A stretch of 64,000 nt of DNA, taken from positions 186,001 through 250,000 of the forward strand of contig NZ_AWFH01000001.1 of the NCBI RefSeq assembly GCF_000682715.1, in the 5' to 3' direction. This document shows, one piece after another, positions 6,939 to 12,266 of this stretch (position 1 is its first letter; each line of letters begins with the position of its first letter). The notes below the pieces were generated by a model, which did no database searches, had not been told where the DNA came from, and saw nothing but the letters and a program-made list of their open reading frames with translations. Source of the DNA: Hyphomonas atlantica corrig. (GTDB lineage: Bacteria; Pseudomonadota; Alphaproteobacteria; Caulobacterales; Hyphomonadaceae). Position numbers and translations under genes: made by a program.

Positions 6939-7895
6939 ATGAAGATGACACCAGCCATCCTTATTCACGGGCCAACAGCCAGCGGAAAAACCGCGCTCGC
7001 CATAGATGTTGCACGTCGCCTGGGCGGCGAAGTGGTCAACGCAGACTCGATGCAGGTCTACCGGGACCTGCAAGTGATCTCGGCCCGCCCAACCGAGGAA
7101 GAGATGGACGGCGTGCCTCACCATTTGTTCGGTCATGTCGATGCGGCGCATCGCTATTCCACCGGCGACTGGCTGGAAGAAGTGCGCGCCACGATCCGCA
7201 ACCTGGAACTGAGGGGCAAACGCGCCATTTTGGTGGGCGGCACTGGACTCTACCTGCTGGCCATGACGCAGGGCCTGTCGAACATCCCACCTGTGCCGGA
7301 GGATGTGCGCGCGGACGTGCGGGCTATTGCCGATGCCGAAGGGGCAGAAGGCCTGCGCAACCGCCTCACCCCTGTGGACCCGGAAACAGCTGCACGTCTC
7401 GGCACGGGAGACCGCCAGCGGCTCGCCCGCGCCTATGAGGTCTATCTGGCCACCGGCAAGCCGATCACCGATTTCCAGAAGAACCGCCAGCCGCCGGTCC
7501 TGAAGGATGGCGAATGGATCGGCTTTGCGCTCACCCCACCTCGGGCAAAACTCTATCAGAAGATCGATCGCCGCTTTGAAGGCATGCTGATGCAAGGGGC
7601 GATGGAAGAGGCCCGCCAGCTCATAAAACGCGACCTCGATCCCGAACTTCCTGCAATGAAAGCACATGGAATGCCGTGGCTGGCTGCCTTTGCGCGCGGA
7701 GAGATAACGGCAGAATTTGCCGCAGAAAACGCCAAACGCGACACAAGACGCTACGCAAAGCGACAATTCACGTGGATTGGTCGCCAATTTCCCTTCTGGC
7801 CGCGCATTCCTTCACCCGAACCGGAAGACCGTTTGAGGGTTATTCTTGCCTTGTATAGGGAGATTGACAGCCCGGTTGAGGCAGATTATTCCTGA
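6939..7895 (+). CDS. miaA: tRNA dimethylallyltransferase MiaA
   Basis: Transfers the dimethylallyl group to A37 of tRNAs reading UNN codons. The P-loop is GPTASGKTALA (residues 8-18), followed by the substrate-contacting NADSMQVYRDLQVISARPT and the GGTGLYL motif. The 318 aa length is typical. It sits directly upstream of the ilvB leader region: the miaA stop is 25 bases before the leader peptide start, so read-through from miaA into the ilv attenuator is possible. MiaA-dependent modification affects decoding of UUA/UUG and similar codons, which may matter for nearby leader-peptide control (inference). Confidence 0.94.
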   Translation: MKMTPAILIHGPTASGKTALAIDVARRLGGEVVNADSMQVYRDLQVISARPTEEEMDGVPHHLFGHVDAAHRYSTGDWLEEVRATIRNLELRGKRAILVGGTGLYLLAMTQGLSNIPPVPEDVRADVRAIADAEGAEGLRNRLTPVDPETAARLGTGDRQRLARAYEVYLATGKPITDFQKNRQPPVLKDGEWIGFALTPPRAKLYQKIDRRFEGMLMQGAMEEARQLIKRDLDPELPAMKAHGMPWLAAFARGEITAEFAAENAKRDTRRYAKRQFTWIGRQFPFWPRIPSPEPEDRLRVILALYREIDSPVEADYS

Positions 7896-7920
7896 TCCCC
7901 GACGTTGGAGGAAACGCACC

Positions 7921-7959
7921 GTGCGCACGAATGTGGTACTCGTTATTAAGCACCCGTGA
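7921..7959 (+). CDS. Putative branched-chain amino acid leader peptide of ilvB
   Basis: A 12-codon ORF reading MRTNVVLVIKHP. It starts at GTG 7921 behind a strong Shine-Dalgarno GGAGGAAA (7907-7914) and ends at TGA 7957-7959. Five consecutive codons encode Val-Val-Leu-Val-Ile, and several of them (GTA, GTT, ATT) are uncommon in this GC-rich genome. It ends just as a long RNA hairpin begins, with a T-tract terminator 40 bases further on and then ilvB. That is the layout of a ribosome-mediated attenuator sensing Val/Leu/Ile-tRNA charging. The peptide itself probably has no function beyond its translation. Confidence 0.8.
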   Translation: MRTNVVLVIKHP

Positions 7960-7988
7960 TTGGCTTTGAGTAAGCCAATTGCGGGTGC
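7950..7988 (+). promoter_or_regulatory. Long leader hairpin of the ilvB attenuator
   Basis: Bases 7950-7966 pair with 7972-7988 to give a 17 bp stem: GCACCCG with CGGGTGC, two G-U wobbles, then ATTGGCTT with AAGCCAAT, closed by loop TGAGT. The 5' arm contains the leader peptide stop codon, so ribosome position on the leader decides whether the stem can form. A GC palindrome (GTGCGCGCAC, 7985-7994) follows and could also pair with the GTGCGCAC at the leader start (7921-7928). Confidence 0.75.
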
Positions 7989-8000
7989 GCGCACATCAAG

Positions 8001-8027
8001 GGGCTCCATCGGGGCCCTTTTTCTTTT
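8001..8027 (+). terminator. Intrinsic terminator in the ilvB leader (attenuator)
   Basis: The stem GGGCTCC (8001-8007) / GGGGCCC (8011-8017), with loop ATC and one T-G wobble, is followed by TTTTTCTTTT (8018-8027). It lies 40 bases before the ilvB ATG and after the leader peptide, so it is most simply a conditional terminator of ilvB rather than the end of miaA. I could not identify a strong antiterminator helix by eye. Confidence 0.75.
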
Positions 8028-8066
8028 CCGATACAGTCCAGACCCAGCCCGACCAGAGACATTCCC

Positions 8067-9845
8067 ATGACAACCGAAACCAAGACCAAGCCCGCCGCTG
8101 AAACCTTGACCATGACTGGCGCCGAGATCGTCATCACGGCCCTCAAGGAGCAAGGCGTGGAAGTCATGTTCGGGTATCCGGGCGGCGCGGTGCTACCCAT
8201 CTATGATGCGCTCTACAGCACTGAAGGGCTCAGCCACATTCTGGTGCGCCACGAACAGGGCGCAGGCCATGCCGCCGAGGGCTATGCCCGCTCGACCGGC
8301 CGGCCTGGCGTTTGCCTCGTTACTTCCGGCCCCGGCGCGACAAACATGGTCACGCCTATCGCCGATGCGATGATGGACTCCATTCCGATGGTTGTCCTGA
8401 CAGGTCAGGTGCCGACACATCTGATCGGCACGGACGCGTTCCAGGAGTGCGACACGACTGGCATTACCCGCACCTGCGCCAAGCACAACTACCTCGTCAC
8501 CGATGTGAACGATCTGGCGCGCACGATCCACGAGGCTTTTCTGATTGCGAAGTCCGGTCGTCCCGGTCCGGTCGTGGTCGACATTCCGAAAGATATCCAG
8601 TTCGCCACCGGCACCTATATCGGCAAGGATGGCGTCCACAAGCCGACCTACCACCCGAACACCACGCCCCAGCCAGAAGCCATCTCCGCAATCGTGGATT
8701 TGATGCTCCATGCGCGGCGGCCGGTCTTCTATACGGGTGGCGGCGTCATCAATTCCGGGCCGGAAGCCTCCCGCCTGCTGCGCGAATTGCAGAAGGCCAC
8801 CGGGTATCCGGTGACCTCCACCCTGATGGGACTGGGCGCCTTCCCGGCCTCTCACAAGGACTGGCTGGGCATGGTCGGCATGCATGGCAGTTTCGAGGCC
8901 AATAATGCCATGCACGACTGTGACCTGATGATCTGCGTCGGCGCGCGCTTTGACGACCGGGTGACCGGCCGCATTGATGCCTTCTCCCCGAACTCTAAGA
9001 AGGTCCACATCGACATCGACCCGTCTTCGATCAACAAGATCGTCCGCGTCGACATTCCGGTGATCGCAGACTGCGCCGAGGCGCTGGCCGCACTCCTGAA
9101 GGAGTTCAAATCCCGCAAGGAGAAGAAGCCGGACCTGAAGCCCTGGAAACAGGAAATCGACATCTGGCGCGCGCGAAATTGCTTCGCCTACACAAATTCC
9201 GACGAGGTGATCAAACCGCAATATGCGCTGGAACGCCTGCACGCGCTGACCCGCGACCGGGAAACCTATTTCACCACCGAAGTTGGCCAGCACCAGATGT
9301 GGGCCGCGCAATTCCTGCACTTCGAGGAACCGAACCGCTGGATGACATCGGGCGGGCTTGGAACGATGGGCTATGGCCTGCCCGCCGCCGTTGGCGTTCA
9401 GGCCGCGCACCCGAATGGTCTTGTGATTGACGTTGCCGGCGAAGCGTCCATCCAGATGATGATGCAGGAATTCTCCACCGCGCTGCAGCACCGGCTACCG
9501 GTGAAGGTCTTCATCCTGAACAATGAATGGATGGGCATGGTGCGCCAGTGGCAGGAATTGCTTCATGGCGAGCGTTATTCCCACACCTATTCGGAGAGCC
9601 TGCCGGACTTCGTGAAACTTGCTGAAGCAATGGGCGGACATGGCATCCGATGCGACAATCCGGCTGAGCTGGACGACAAGATCCGCGAAATGATTGACCA
9701 TCCCGGCCCTGTCCTGTTCGACTGCCGTGTCGAGAAGGCAGAGAATTGCCTGCCGATGATCCCGTCGGGCTCTGCCCACAATGAGATGATCCTCGGCGAG
9801 ATCACAGGTGACGAAATCGGAGAGGCCGGCAAGACGCTGGTCTGA
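8067..9845 (+). CDS. ilvB: Acetolactate synthase large (catalytic) subunit
   Basis: ThDP-dependent enzyme making 2-acetolactate or 2-aceto-2-hydroxybutyrate, the first common step of Val, Leu and Ile synthesis. Family marks are [16 protein letters not shown], the catalytic Glu in [18 protein letters not shown], and VTSGPGATN near the N-terminus. The C-terminal ThDP domain has [14 protein letters not shown]. The usual GDG of the metal-binding motif reads GEA (VAGEASIQ, Glu459). Length is 592 aa. It is preceded by the leader peptide/terminator at 7921-8027, and the regulatory subunit gene follows 129 bases downstream. Confidence 0.95.
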
Positions 9846-9974: not shown

Positions 9975-10550
9975 ATGAGCGACGGATCGACAGGCACACC
10001 GCCCGGCGGCGGCAATCCGAAATCGGCCTATTTCCTGTCCCATGAGGATCAGGAAGTCGAACGCCGTACGCTGGCCGTCATGGTGGACAACGAACCCGGC
10101 GTGCTCGCGCGGGTCGTAGGCCTGTTCTCGGGCCGTGGCTACAACATCGACAGCCTCACCGTGGCCGAGGTGGATGCAAACGAACACCGCTCACGCATCA
10201 CGATCGTGACCCAGGGCACGCCTCACATCCTCGAACAGATCGAAGCCCAGCTTCTGCGCATTGTGCCCGTTGATCAGGTGATCGATATCACCAAGTCGAA
10301 ACGCGGCATTGAGCGCGAACTCGCCTTGGTAAAAGTCGCCGGAATCGGAGAGGCCCGCGTCGAAGCGCTGCGCATCTCTCAGATTTTCCGGGCAAATGTG
10401 ATAGACACGACCAATGAGAGCTTCATTTTCGAGCTGACGGGTGCCTCCGACAAGATCTCGCAATTTGTCGACCTCATGCGGCCTCTGGGCCTTGTCGAAG
10501 TCAGCCGGACAGGTGTCCTGTCGATCAAGCGCGGAAAGGTGAAAGGATGA
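9975..10550 (+). CDS. ilvH: Acetolactate synthase small (regulatory) subunit
   Basis: Regulatory partner of IlvB that confers valine feedback inhibition and stimulates catalysis. The ACT domain starts at about residue 32 (RRTLAVMVDNEPGVLARVVGLFSGRGYNIDSLTV), followed by the C-terminal ALS_ss domain (ELALVKVAGIGEARVEALRI... GVLSIKRGKVKG). Length 191 aa is slightly longer than usual because of an N-terminal extension of about 25 residues that looks disordered. The ATG has GGAG upstream. The 129-base gap after ilvB holds two small hairpins (GCAAAA-CATC-TTTTGC at 9898-9913 and GCCTTT-A-AAAGGC at 9927-9939) of unknown role. Its TGA overlaps the next gene's ATG (ATGA). Confidence 0.94.
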   Translation: MSDGSTGTPPGGGNPKSAYFLSHEDQEVERRTLAVMVDNEPGVLARVVGLFSGRGYNIDSLTVAEVDANEHRSRITIVTQGTPHILEQIEAQLLRIVPVDQVIDITKSKRGIERELALVKVAGIGEARVEALRISQIFRANVIDTTNESFIFELTGASDKISQFVDLMRPLGLVEVSRTGVLSIKRGKVKG

Positions 10551-11194
10551 GAAAAGCAAGCCTGCTTGCCATCGCCGCCTTCTGTCTTGGTGGCACTGCC
10601 ATCGCGCAGGAGAACCTGCCGGAAACGTGCCGCGGGAATGTTTCGTCGGCGGCCTATATGGCACCTGACGAAGCCGCCAAGGCCGACCTTCAGTGCGACA
10701 TAGACCGCGCTGAGCGTCTGGTTGCACGCGCCAGCACAATCTTTGATGCCGATCCGGCTCCCCTGCTTCGGATCGTGGATACTGCTGCGCCGAGCGGCGC
10801 GGCCTACATCTATGACATTGTTGACTGGTCCGGAACAATGATGCTGGACGCTCGCACCGTTCCGGTTGCAGAAAATGTCCGCATCCCGATGTGCCGCGTG
10901 CAAACTCAACTGCCAGCCAATGTCGCCAATCAGGTTGCATTGTCATTGCTCACGGCCAGCGATGCAGAATTGCCAGCCTATGGCACCCGCGAAAAGATGA
11001 TCACGAACGCAGATGGTTCGCGCAGTTTTGAACTGCTGCTGTCCTCGCACGACATCGTTACAAGCATCGAGACAACCAGCGGCCTGCGCCAGTTCTCCCG
11101 CCATGCCGAAGCCACAGATCCCATTGCCGAACTGAACCGCAGCGTCATCGGCGTCGCCAATTTTTCAGATGACTGGGTATGCCAATCCAATTGA
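10547..11194 (+). CDS. Predicted secreted protein of unknown function inside the ilv cluster
   Basis: A 215-residue product with a clear Sec signal peptide (MRKASLLAIAAFCLGGTAIAQ, cleavage after AIA-Q). The mature part has paired cysteines (ETCRGN, LQCDID, PMCRVQ, DWVCQSN), which fits an oxidising periplasm. I do not recognise a family. Its ATG overlaps the ilvH stop (ATGA), so it is likely translated with ilvH, and ilvC starts 52 bases after it. A periplasmic protein inside a cytosolic biosynthetic operon is unexpected; a functional link is not supported by sequence. Confidence 0.75.
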   Translation: MRKASLLAIAAFCLGGTAIAQENLPETCRGNVSSAAYMAPDEAAKADLQCDIDRAERLVARASTIFDADPAPLLRIVDTAAPSGAAYIYDIVDWSGTMMLDARTVPVAENVRIPMCRVQTQLPANVANQVALSLLTASDAELPAYGTREKMITNADGSRSFELLLSSHDIVTSIETTSGLRQFSRHAEATDPIAELNRSVIGVANFSDDWVCQSN

Positions 11195-11246: not shown

Positions 11247-12266
11247 ATGAAAATCTATTACGAGCAGGATGCGGACATCGCCCTCATCCAGAGCAAGAAA
11301 GTCGCCGTCATTGGCTATGGCAGCCAGGGCCACGCCCACATTCTCAACATGCGCGACAGCGGCGTGAAGAACGTCAAGGTCGGCCTCTATGAAGGCTCCC
11401 CAAGCCGCAAGAAGGCAGAAGCTGAAGGCCTCGAAGTCGTCACGCCAGCAGAGGCTGCGCAATGGGCCGACGTGATCATGATCCTGATCCCGGACGAGAA
11501 GCAGGCCGTTCTGTACGCAAACGAAATCGAGCCACACCTGCGTGCGGGCCAGCACCTGATGTTCGGCCACGGCTTCAACGTTCACTACAACCTGATCCGT
11601 CCGCGTCCGGACGTTGACGTTTCCCTGTCTGCGCCGAAGGGCCCAGGCCACACGCTGCGCGCCCAATACCAGATGGGCTTTGGCTTGCCGGGTCTCGTTG
11701 CGATCCATCAGGATGCAACCGGCACCGCAAAAGACGTTGCCCTGTCTTATTCGAAAGCCATCGGCAACACCCGCGCTGGCGTGATCGAAACTTCCTTCCG
11801 CGAAGAAACCGAAACCGACCTGTTCGGTGAACAGGCTGTGCTTTGCGGCGGCATCGTCGAACTGATCAAGGCGGGTTACGAAACGCTGGTCGAGGCCGGT
11901 TACGCGCCTGAAATGGCATACTTCGAATGCCTGCACGAAACCAAGCTGATCGTGGACCTGATTTATGAAGGCGGCATCGCCAACATGAACTACTCGATCT
12001 CCAACACGGCCGAATACGGCGAATACGTTTCCGGCCCACGCGTCGTGAATTCCGAAGCCAAGGCAAACATGAAGAAGGTTCTGGAAGACATCCAGAACGG
12101 CACCTTCGCACGCAACTGGGTTCTGGAAAACCAGGCCGGCGCACCGGGCTTCAACGCCATGCGCCAGCGCATGAACAGCCACGAGATCGAGGAAGTCGGC
12201 GAAAAGCTGCGCGGCATGATGCACTGGGCGCAGAACGACCGCCTGGTCGACAAGGCCCGCAACTAA
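11247..12266 (+). CDS. ilvC: Ketol-acid reductoisomerase
   Basis: Converts 2-acetolactate to 2,3-dihydroxyisovalerate (and the Ile homologue) using NADPH and Mg2+. It is the short class I form (339 aa). The Rossmann motif is [20 protein letters not shown], and [12 protein letters not shown] and [19 protein letters not shown] carry the metal-binding Asp and Glu residues. The C-terminal knot region includes [21 protein letters not shown]. It starts with AGAGG seven bases before ATG. It closes the ilvB-ilvH-(secreted protein)-ilvC run and is convergent with the GH25 gene three bases beyond its stop. Confidence 0.96.

Follow-up and report, generated by a model that had tools for sequence, protein, structure and literature searches.

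An attenuator in the ilvBN leader of Caulobacter crescentus was reportedly described by Tarleton, Malakooti and Ely in 1994, and Vitreschak and others are said to have surveyed proteobacterial attenuators comparatively. According to a published account, the Caulobacter ilvBN leader is an attenuator whose Ile and Val codons stand in tandem (PMC4117421). For the ilvB-II motif upstream of ilvBNC in Corynebacterium, two papers describe a short branched-chain uORF, in which CUU and GUA serve as control codons and which is spanned by a hairpin, and a terminator followed by the genes, as well as an antiterminator in which the segment after the control codons pairs with the terminator base (PMC10272879, PMC11857589). 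The attenuators of E. coli likewise combine a leader peptide carrying control codons with hairpins and a terminator. No description of the Hyphomonas leader was found in the accessible literature on Caulobacter ilvBN, on alphaproteobacterial, rhizobial and proteobacterial ilvB(N) attenuators, or on S. meliloti leaders. With the Caulobacter ilvBN leader in print, this kind of attenuator is already known, and the Hyphomonas leader adds a member to it.

The DNA analyzed here, referred to as the window, is a stretch of 64,000 nucleotides from Hyphomonas atlantica. Judged from its sequence, the element upstream of ilvB can be assigned with high confidence to the ribosome-mediated transcription attenuators, predicted to act on ilvBN(-ORF-ilvC) and to sense charged tRNA(Val), tRNA(Leu) and tRNA(Ile). 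The cluster downstream of the leader has the order ilvB-ilvN-ORF-ilvC on the forward strand and consists of the genes for the large subunit of acetolactate synthase (ilvB, 8067-9845; NCBIfam NF006581, 1064 bits against a cut-off of 974), the small subunit of this enzyme (ilvN, 9975-10550; NF008864), a protein of 215 aa without an NCBIfam match (10547-11194), the start of which overlaps the ilvN end, and ketol-acid reductoisomerase (ilvC, 11247-12266; NF004017). According to the NCBIfam names, these genes represent the pathway that matches the control codons of the leader. The gene just upstream of the leader, which ends at position 7895, was named miaA by NCBIfam.

The leader ORF, MRTNVVLVIKHP, extends over 12 codons on the forward strand (7921-7959) from a GTG start to a TGA stop codon (7957-7959), is conserved in relatives, and is preceded by a Shine-Dalgarno sequence, GGAGG, on the same strand (7907-7911). 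Codons 5-9 (7933-7947, forward strand) read GTG GTA CTC GTT ATT, that is, Val Val Leu Val Ile. Direct reading bore out the coordinates and readings that a preliminary description of the locus had given for the Shine-Dalgarno sequence, the 12-codon ORF and its five consecutive branched-chain codons. A promoter-like sequence, TTGACA-N17-TATTCC, is located inside the 3' end of miaA (7864-7892, forward strand), which would place the transcript start at about 7899-7902, approximately 20 nt upstream of the leader ORF. TATTCC makes a weak -10 box, and because a strict sigma-70 promoter scan identified no site, the assignment of the promoter rests on conservation. In 103 of 104 representative sequences, the motif TTGA[CT] precedes the leader at a median distance of 56 nt (IQR 55-57) from its start, as compared to 13% of shuffled sequences, and a transcript start downstream of 7959, which the preliminary description had considered, is not suggested by a motif in this position.

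Three pairings were predicted by folding, all on the forward strand. The 17-bp hairpin P2 (7950-7988), with its left arm at 7950-7966, its loop at 7967-7971 and its right arm at 7972-7988, surrounds the leader stop codon; its length agrees with the preliminary description, which had placed its beginning at the stop codon, but the stem starts 7 nt earlier and the stop codon lies inside the left arm. The intrinsic terminator T (7998-8027), identified by folding and a terminator scan, ends 39 bases upstream of ilvB and is completed by TTTTTCTTTT at 8018-8027. The terminator and its T-tract had been recognized correctly, but the stem, put at 7 bp, consists of 10 pairs (7998-8007/8011-8020), of which the inner seven are six G-C and one G-U. 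Absent from the preliminary description is P1, a 6-bp pairing of the start codon region with the stretch 3' of P2, in which the left arm GTGCGC (7921-7926) includes the start codon and the right arm GCGCAC (7989-7994) is part of the linker between P2 and the terminator. The folding energy of positions 7890-8030 was estimated to -62 kcal/mol, as compared to a mean of -43.8 kcal/mol (sd 4.05) for shuffled sequences (z -4.49), and none of 200 shuffles matched the native value. The terminator scan of positions 7700-8100 returned one site, against 0.4 expected. No Rfam family was detected in the window at the gathering score, the best sub-threshold match being sX11 with 29.5 bits against 70, and a DNA-similarity search of the organism's own genome for a second leader copy recovered only the copy in the window. 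A pairing of CCCCGA with TCGGGG, noted by eye in the window, begins no later than the position predicted for the transcript start and was dropped.

We compared the leader to IlvB-anchored upstream regions gathered from relatives and from named genomes, with some genomes present by both routes. Sufficient sequence was available for 228 regions (duplicates included). In 205 of these, an automatic rule recognized both a short leader ORF and a terminator, while 20 were without a terminator and three without a leader; the detection of leaders favors Ile/Leu/Val codons, and 205 of 228 is thus an upper figure. Once doubtful cases were removed, the leader was retained at 65 of the 80 named loci, the leaderless ones being L050, L055, L061, L070, L071, L079, L080, L092, L093, L094, L101, L102, L106, L108 and L109, of which L055 and L106 are counted as leaderless but were without upstream sequence. 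In L093, a Parvularcula MAG, for which no terminator was found by the rule, the stretch upstream of ilvB resembles the end of the IlvC protein when inspected by eye, and this locus may have the order ilvC-ilvB and no such leader. Hyphomonas, Henriciella, Caulobacter, Phenylobacterium and some Hyphomicrobiales share the leader plan upstream of ilvB, and within Hyphomonas 38 distinct sequences retain it despite base changes. The family-wide set consists of 104 representatives with less than 93% identity. Six misassigned sequences (L030, L050, L061, L092, L160 and L205) and the leaderless L094 were removed ahead of the tests on 105 sequences; L107, misplaced by the automatic rule, was included in these tests and excluded from those on 104 sequences.

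All 38 distinct Hyphomonas leaders contain Ile, Leu or Val at three to five of codons 5-9, encoded by 19 different codon combinations. In the 104 leaders, which were selected partly by their Ile/Leu/Val content, these amino acids account for 497 of 1394 codons in the leader frame, whereas the two remaining frames contain 190 and 84 such codons, each out of 1290. The codon GUA makes up 55% of the 231 Val codons in the leaders, which are from many species, and 3% of the 174 Val codons in six window genes, which are from a single species; at codon 6, 37 of the 38 Hyphomonas leaders use GUA. The control clusters extend, by their medians in the 104 representatives, from codon 6 to codon 9. P2 starts at the last branched-chain codon, with a median gap of -2 nt, and is separated from T by a linker with a median length of 5 nt (IQR 3-8). 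The leader stop codon is located within P2 in 103 of the 104 representatives, which makes this position, considered unusual in the preliminary description, the rule in the family. The stop codon of the E. coli trp leader is likewise located inside the 1:2 hairpin. The start codons of the 104 representatives are AUG in 48, GUG in 39 and UUG in 17 cases.

The preliminary description had proposed to align the leaders across related genomes, and the alignment of the 38 Hyphomonas sequences supports both the hairpin and the control codons. Changes on both sides were observed at five of the 14 consensus-structure pairs of P2, and 35-38 of the 38 sequences are paired at each of the 14. For T, one pair with changes on both sides was found in Hyphomonas. 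At the pair 7957/7981 in P2, to which the leader stop codon contributes its U, all 38 Hyphomonas leaders carry U-G. Among the 105 representatives, P2 and T, the limits of which were fixed by folding so that their outermost pairs are paired by construction, were the top covarying helices, and the strongest covarying pairs beyond them were isolated column pairs that define no further helix, in an alignment that cannot reveal P1 because the placement of P1 is variable. A separate comparison of the start region with the pre-terminator stretch gave a better pairing of P1 with its own partner than with those of other species (z -2.74; composition-corrected z -3.31; 105 representatives), but the difference was not significant for longer segments (z -1.03) or for 47 representatives (z -1.32). 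Within Hyphomonas, where P1 hardly varies, it therefore displays no covariation (z -0.82); for this genus RNAalifold placed a local hairpin of 3 bp at the leader start in preference to P1, and inspection by eye indicated that P1 is one pair short in the group of Hyphomonas leaders that start with TTG.

With miaA ending at 7895, close upstream, T could be taken for nothing but the miaA terminator and the short ORF for a chance reading frame. We consider this highly improbable, since the ORF, the codon class, P2 and the promoter position are all kept despite sequence change; moreover, the stretch before the leader in L026 and L029 is, by eye, unlike the miaA end. The comparison, through the codon class, the changes in P2 and the promoter position, instead supports the view of the preliminary description that a branched-chain leader peptide and an attenuator precede ilvB. 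The features found are a predicted short ORF with a Shine-Dalgarno sequence and codons for the amino acids of the pathway, an intrinsic terminator between the leader and the first structural gene, and a protector (1:2) hairpin, P2, that overlaps the ORF end.

In the textbook attenuator with three structures, P2 would correspond to 1:2, T to 3:4, and the right arm of P2 together with the left arm of T to the 2:3 antiterminator. The layout fits, in that the control codons reach the left arm of P2 and the stop codon lies within P2, and a stalled ribosome would therefore free the right arm of P2. Nevertheless, we regard this arrangement as quite unlikely, because the P2 right arm and the T left arm do not match each other. 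Their pairing is weaker than that of shuffled arms (-5.97 as compared to -7.94 kcal/mol, t 13.0) and also weaker than when they are cross-paired with arms from other species (z +5.42), both in 105 sequences. A segment test on the alphaproteobacterial set gave a mean z of +0.46, with 1% of the 104 sequences below -1.5, and the upstream pairing of the T left arm was estimated to 0.49 with the ribosome stalled and 0.56 with the ribosome at the stop codon (difference -0.067), with a gain of more than 0.3 in 0% of the 104. The folding model behind the latter estimates masks the ribosome and includes neither pseudoknots nor kinetics. A classical antiterminator in the alphaproteobacterial leaders is thus not supported by the modeling. 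The preliminary description was right in suspecting that the antiterminator is not the textbook one, but the reason is the mismatch of these two arms rather than the position of the stop codon.

Seven E. coli leaders (trp, thr, his, phe, leu, ilvL and ivbL), fetched by annotation, served as controls. In a similar segment test they yielded a mean z of -2.25 and were not all positive (thr -5.60, phe -3.45, his -2.40, ivbL -2.27, ilvL -1.36, trp -0.87 and leu +0.21). Under ribosome-masked folding, the mean upstream pairing of the T left arm was 0.57 for the stalled ribosome and 0.29 for the ribosome at the stop codon, with no rise on stalling in ilvL and ivbL. With stalls at all control codons, a strong rise was obtained only for thr, trp and phe, while the rise was below 0.1 for his, ilvL and leu and absent for ivbL. 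Given these weak rises, the control misses some true attenuators, both ilv leaders included. As a group, the E. coli leaders thus carry a measurable 2:3 antiterminator, although the seven do not all display it in every test, whereas the alphaproteobacterial set displays none. Because a 2:3 helix exclusive with both P2 and T was not found by these methods, for which the E. coli control is imperfect, the leader is not filed under the textbook subtype; the broad class does not require this helix. The mean terminator pair probability was 0.91-0.93 across the free, stalled and stop states in the alphaproteobacterial set, which says little since it is nearly constant also in six of the seven E. coli leaders and falls only in phe.

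Other partners for the T left arm were also considered. Compared to cross pairs, the arm pairs better with the ORF end or the P2 left arm (z -3.58, composition-corrected; z -3.21 for the P2 left arm); these candidates were set aside, as their pairing is hardly above that of shuffled sequences and the sites differ between species. For the right arm of T, no segment clearly exceeded the shuffles. Upstream of T, only the 5' leader that carries the Shine-Dalgarno sequence surpasses shuffled sequences in its pairing with the left arm, an effect that is slight across the family (t -1.8). The Shine-Dalgarno sequence or 5' end could then form the antiterminator by pairing with this arm, in which case the signal sensed would be the exclusion of new ribosomes from the Shine-Dalgarno sequence by a stalled one. 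This is doubtful, although several estimates agree with it. The stalled-state pairing between the T left arm and the UTR was 0.63 in 17 Hyphomonas leaders, as compared to 0.28 with either the UTR or the arm shuffled; the values were 0.44 against 0.27-0.35 for 42 others in the Hyphomonas family group and 0.40 against 0.31-0.32 for 45 further leaders. Masking of the start site abolishes the interaction, with the share of the Shine-Dalgarno sequence falling from 0.48 to 0.04 (104 representatives), and the control clusters are located within one ribosome of the start. On the other hand, the interaction is without covariation (own versus cross, z -0.20; 105 representatives), the stem is weaker than cross-paired stems in 41 non-Hyphomonas members of the same family (z +3.22), and swaps of UTRs between species cost the pairing nothing. 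Taken together, the free swaps and the z of -0.20 indicate that it may merely reflect purine-rich Shine-Dalgarno sequences that face pyrimidine-rich arms.

The share of the Shine-Dalgarno sequence is no higher in the stalled state (0.40) than with the ribosome at the stop codon (0.46) or absent (0.48). As compared to occupation of both start and stop, a gain of more than 0.3 in the upstream pairing of the T left arm was obtained on stalling in only 15% of the 104 leaders and 6% of the 17 from Hyphomonas. The total upstream pairing of this arm drops little when start and stop are occupied, from 0.49 in the stalled state to 0.40, as other partners substitute, and this drop being so small lowers the odds of the step. 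For the leader in the window, the upstream pairing of the arm is lower in the stalled state (0.47) than with start and stop occupied (0.57), and its pairing with the Shine-Dalgarno sequence does not surpass that of shuffled sequences (z 0.20). Antitermination is furthermore predicted also for an untranslated leader. Because its pairing with the T left arm exceeds that of shuffled sequences, the Shine-Dalgarno sequence is retained as a candidate only. The broader proposal, that attenuation without a classical antiterminator is widespread in Alphaproteobacteria, with the T left arm acting as an anti-Shine-Dalgarno sequence that pairs with the Shine-Dalgarno sequence of the leader and reads ribosome access, appears unlikely. 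Strong complementarity between the Shine-Dalgarno region and the T left arm was observed in L091 and L082 (Methylosinus/Methylocystaceae; -16.3 and -13.8 kcal/mol), and in the free fold of L091 this pairing beats the terminator.

There may also be no antiterminator helix at all, with the ribosome acting through P2, approximately 5 nt from T, such that the opening of P2 or a contact between ribosome and polymerase reduces termination. The short linker and the lack of an additional helix among the strongest covarying pairs are consistent with such a mechanism, which we consider a tentative and rather improbable alternative, but in the E. coli leaders, by a similar measure, paired bases are likewise located 2-15 nt from T, and the short linker is therefore not special.

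We suggest that attenuation proceeds as follows. A promoter within the miaA end would start the leader transcript, and a ribosome would translate the 12 codons. When amino acids are plentiful, the ribosome would finish fast, the leader would refold to P1 and P2, and RNA polymerase would stop at T. Under scarcity, the ribosome would stall within codons 5-9, where, depending on the codon, it would cover either the start region or the first part of the P2 left arm, and the polymerase would continue into ilvB. The ribosome stall and the direction of the response are inferred from the Caulobacter precedent. As a candidate step, a stall within about nine codons of the start would bar new ribosomes, and the free Shine-Dalgarno sequence could hold the T left arm, whereas in times of plenty fresh ribosomes on the Shine-Dalgarno sequence would allow T to form.

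Compared to the described systems, the Hyphomonas leader is most similar to the Caulobacter ilvBN leader, with which it shares the gene, a peptide with tandem branched-chain codons and a terminator before ilvB. In Caulobacter vibrioides (L060) the layout is like that of the window, with MRKTMIVLMERPFAG, P2 and T, and the position before ilvB, the promoter spacing, the ORF, P2 and T were all found as in a leader of the Caulobacter type; the sequences of P2 and T and the leader length differ from those in Hyphomonas. The Corynebacterium ilvB-II motif, as described, resembles the Hyphomonas leader in its branched-chain uORF, hairpin, terminator and ilvBNC genes. It differs in its antiterminator as described there, since the codon region pairs with the T left arm less well than shuffled sequences do in the 105 sequences (-2.91 as compared to -3.70).

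The leader and its two hairpins thus very probably turn down the branched-chain amino-acid genes of Hyphomonas when amino acids are plentiful. The contrast to E. coli, with no classical antiterminator detectable here, poses the concrete question of how the stalled ribosome cancels the terminator. The results extend the regulatory precedent from Caulobacter to a leader family in Hyphomonadaceae, Caulobacteraceae and some Hyphomicrobiales, of which the promoter position, control codons and hairpins can now be used for annotation.
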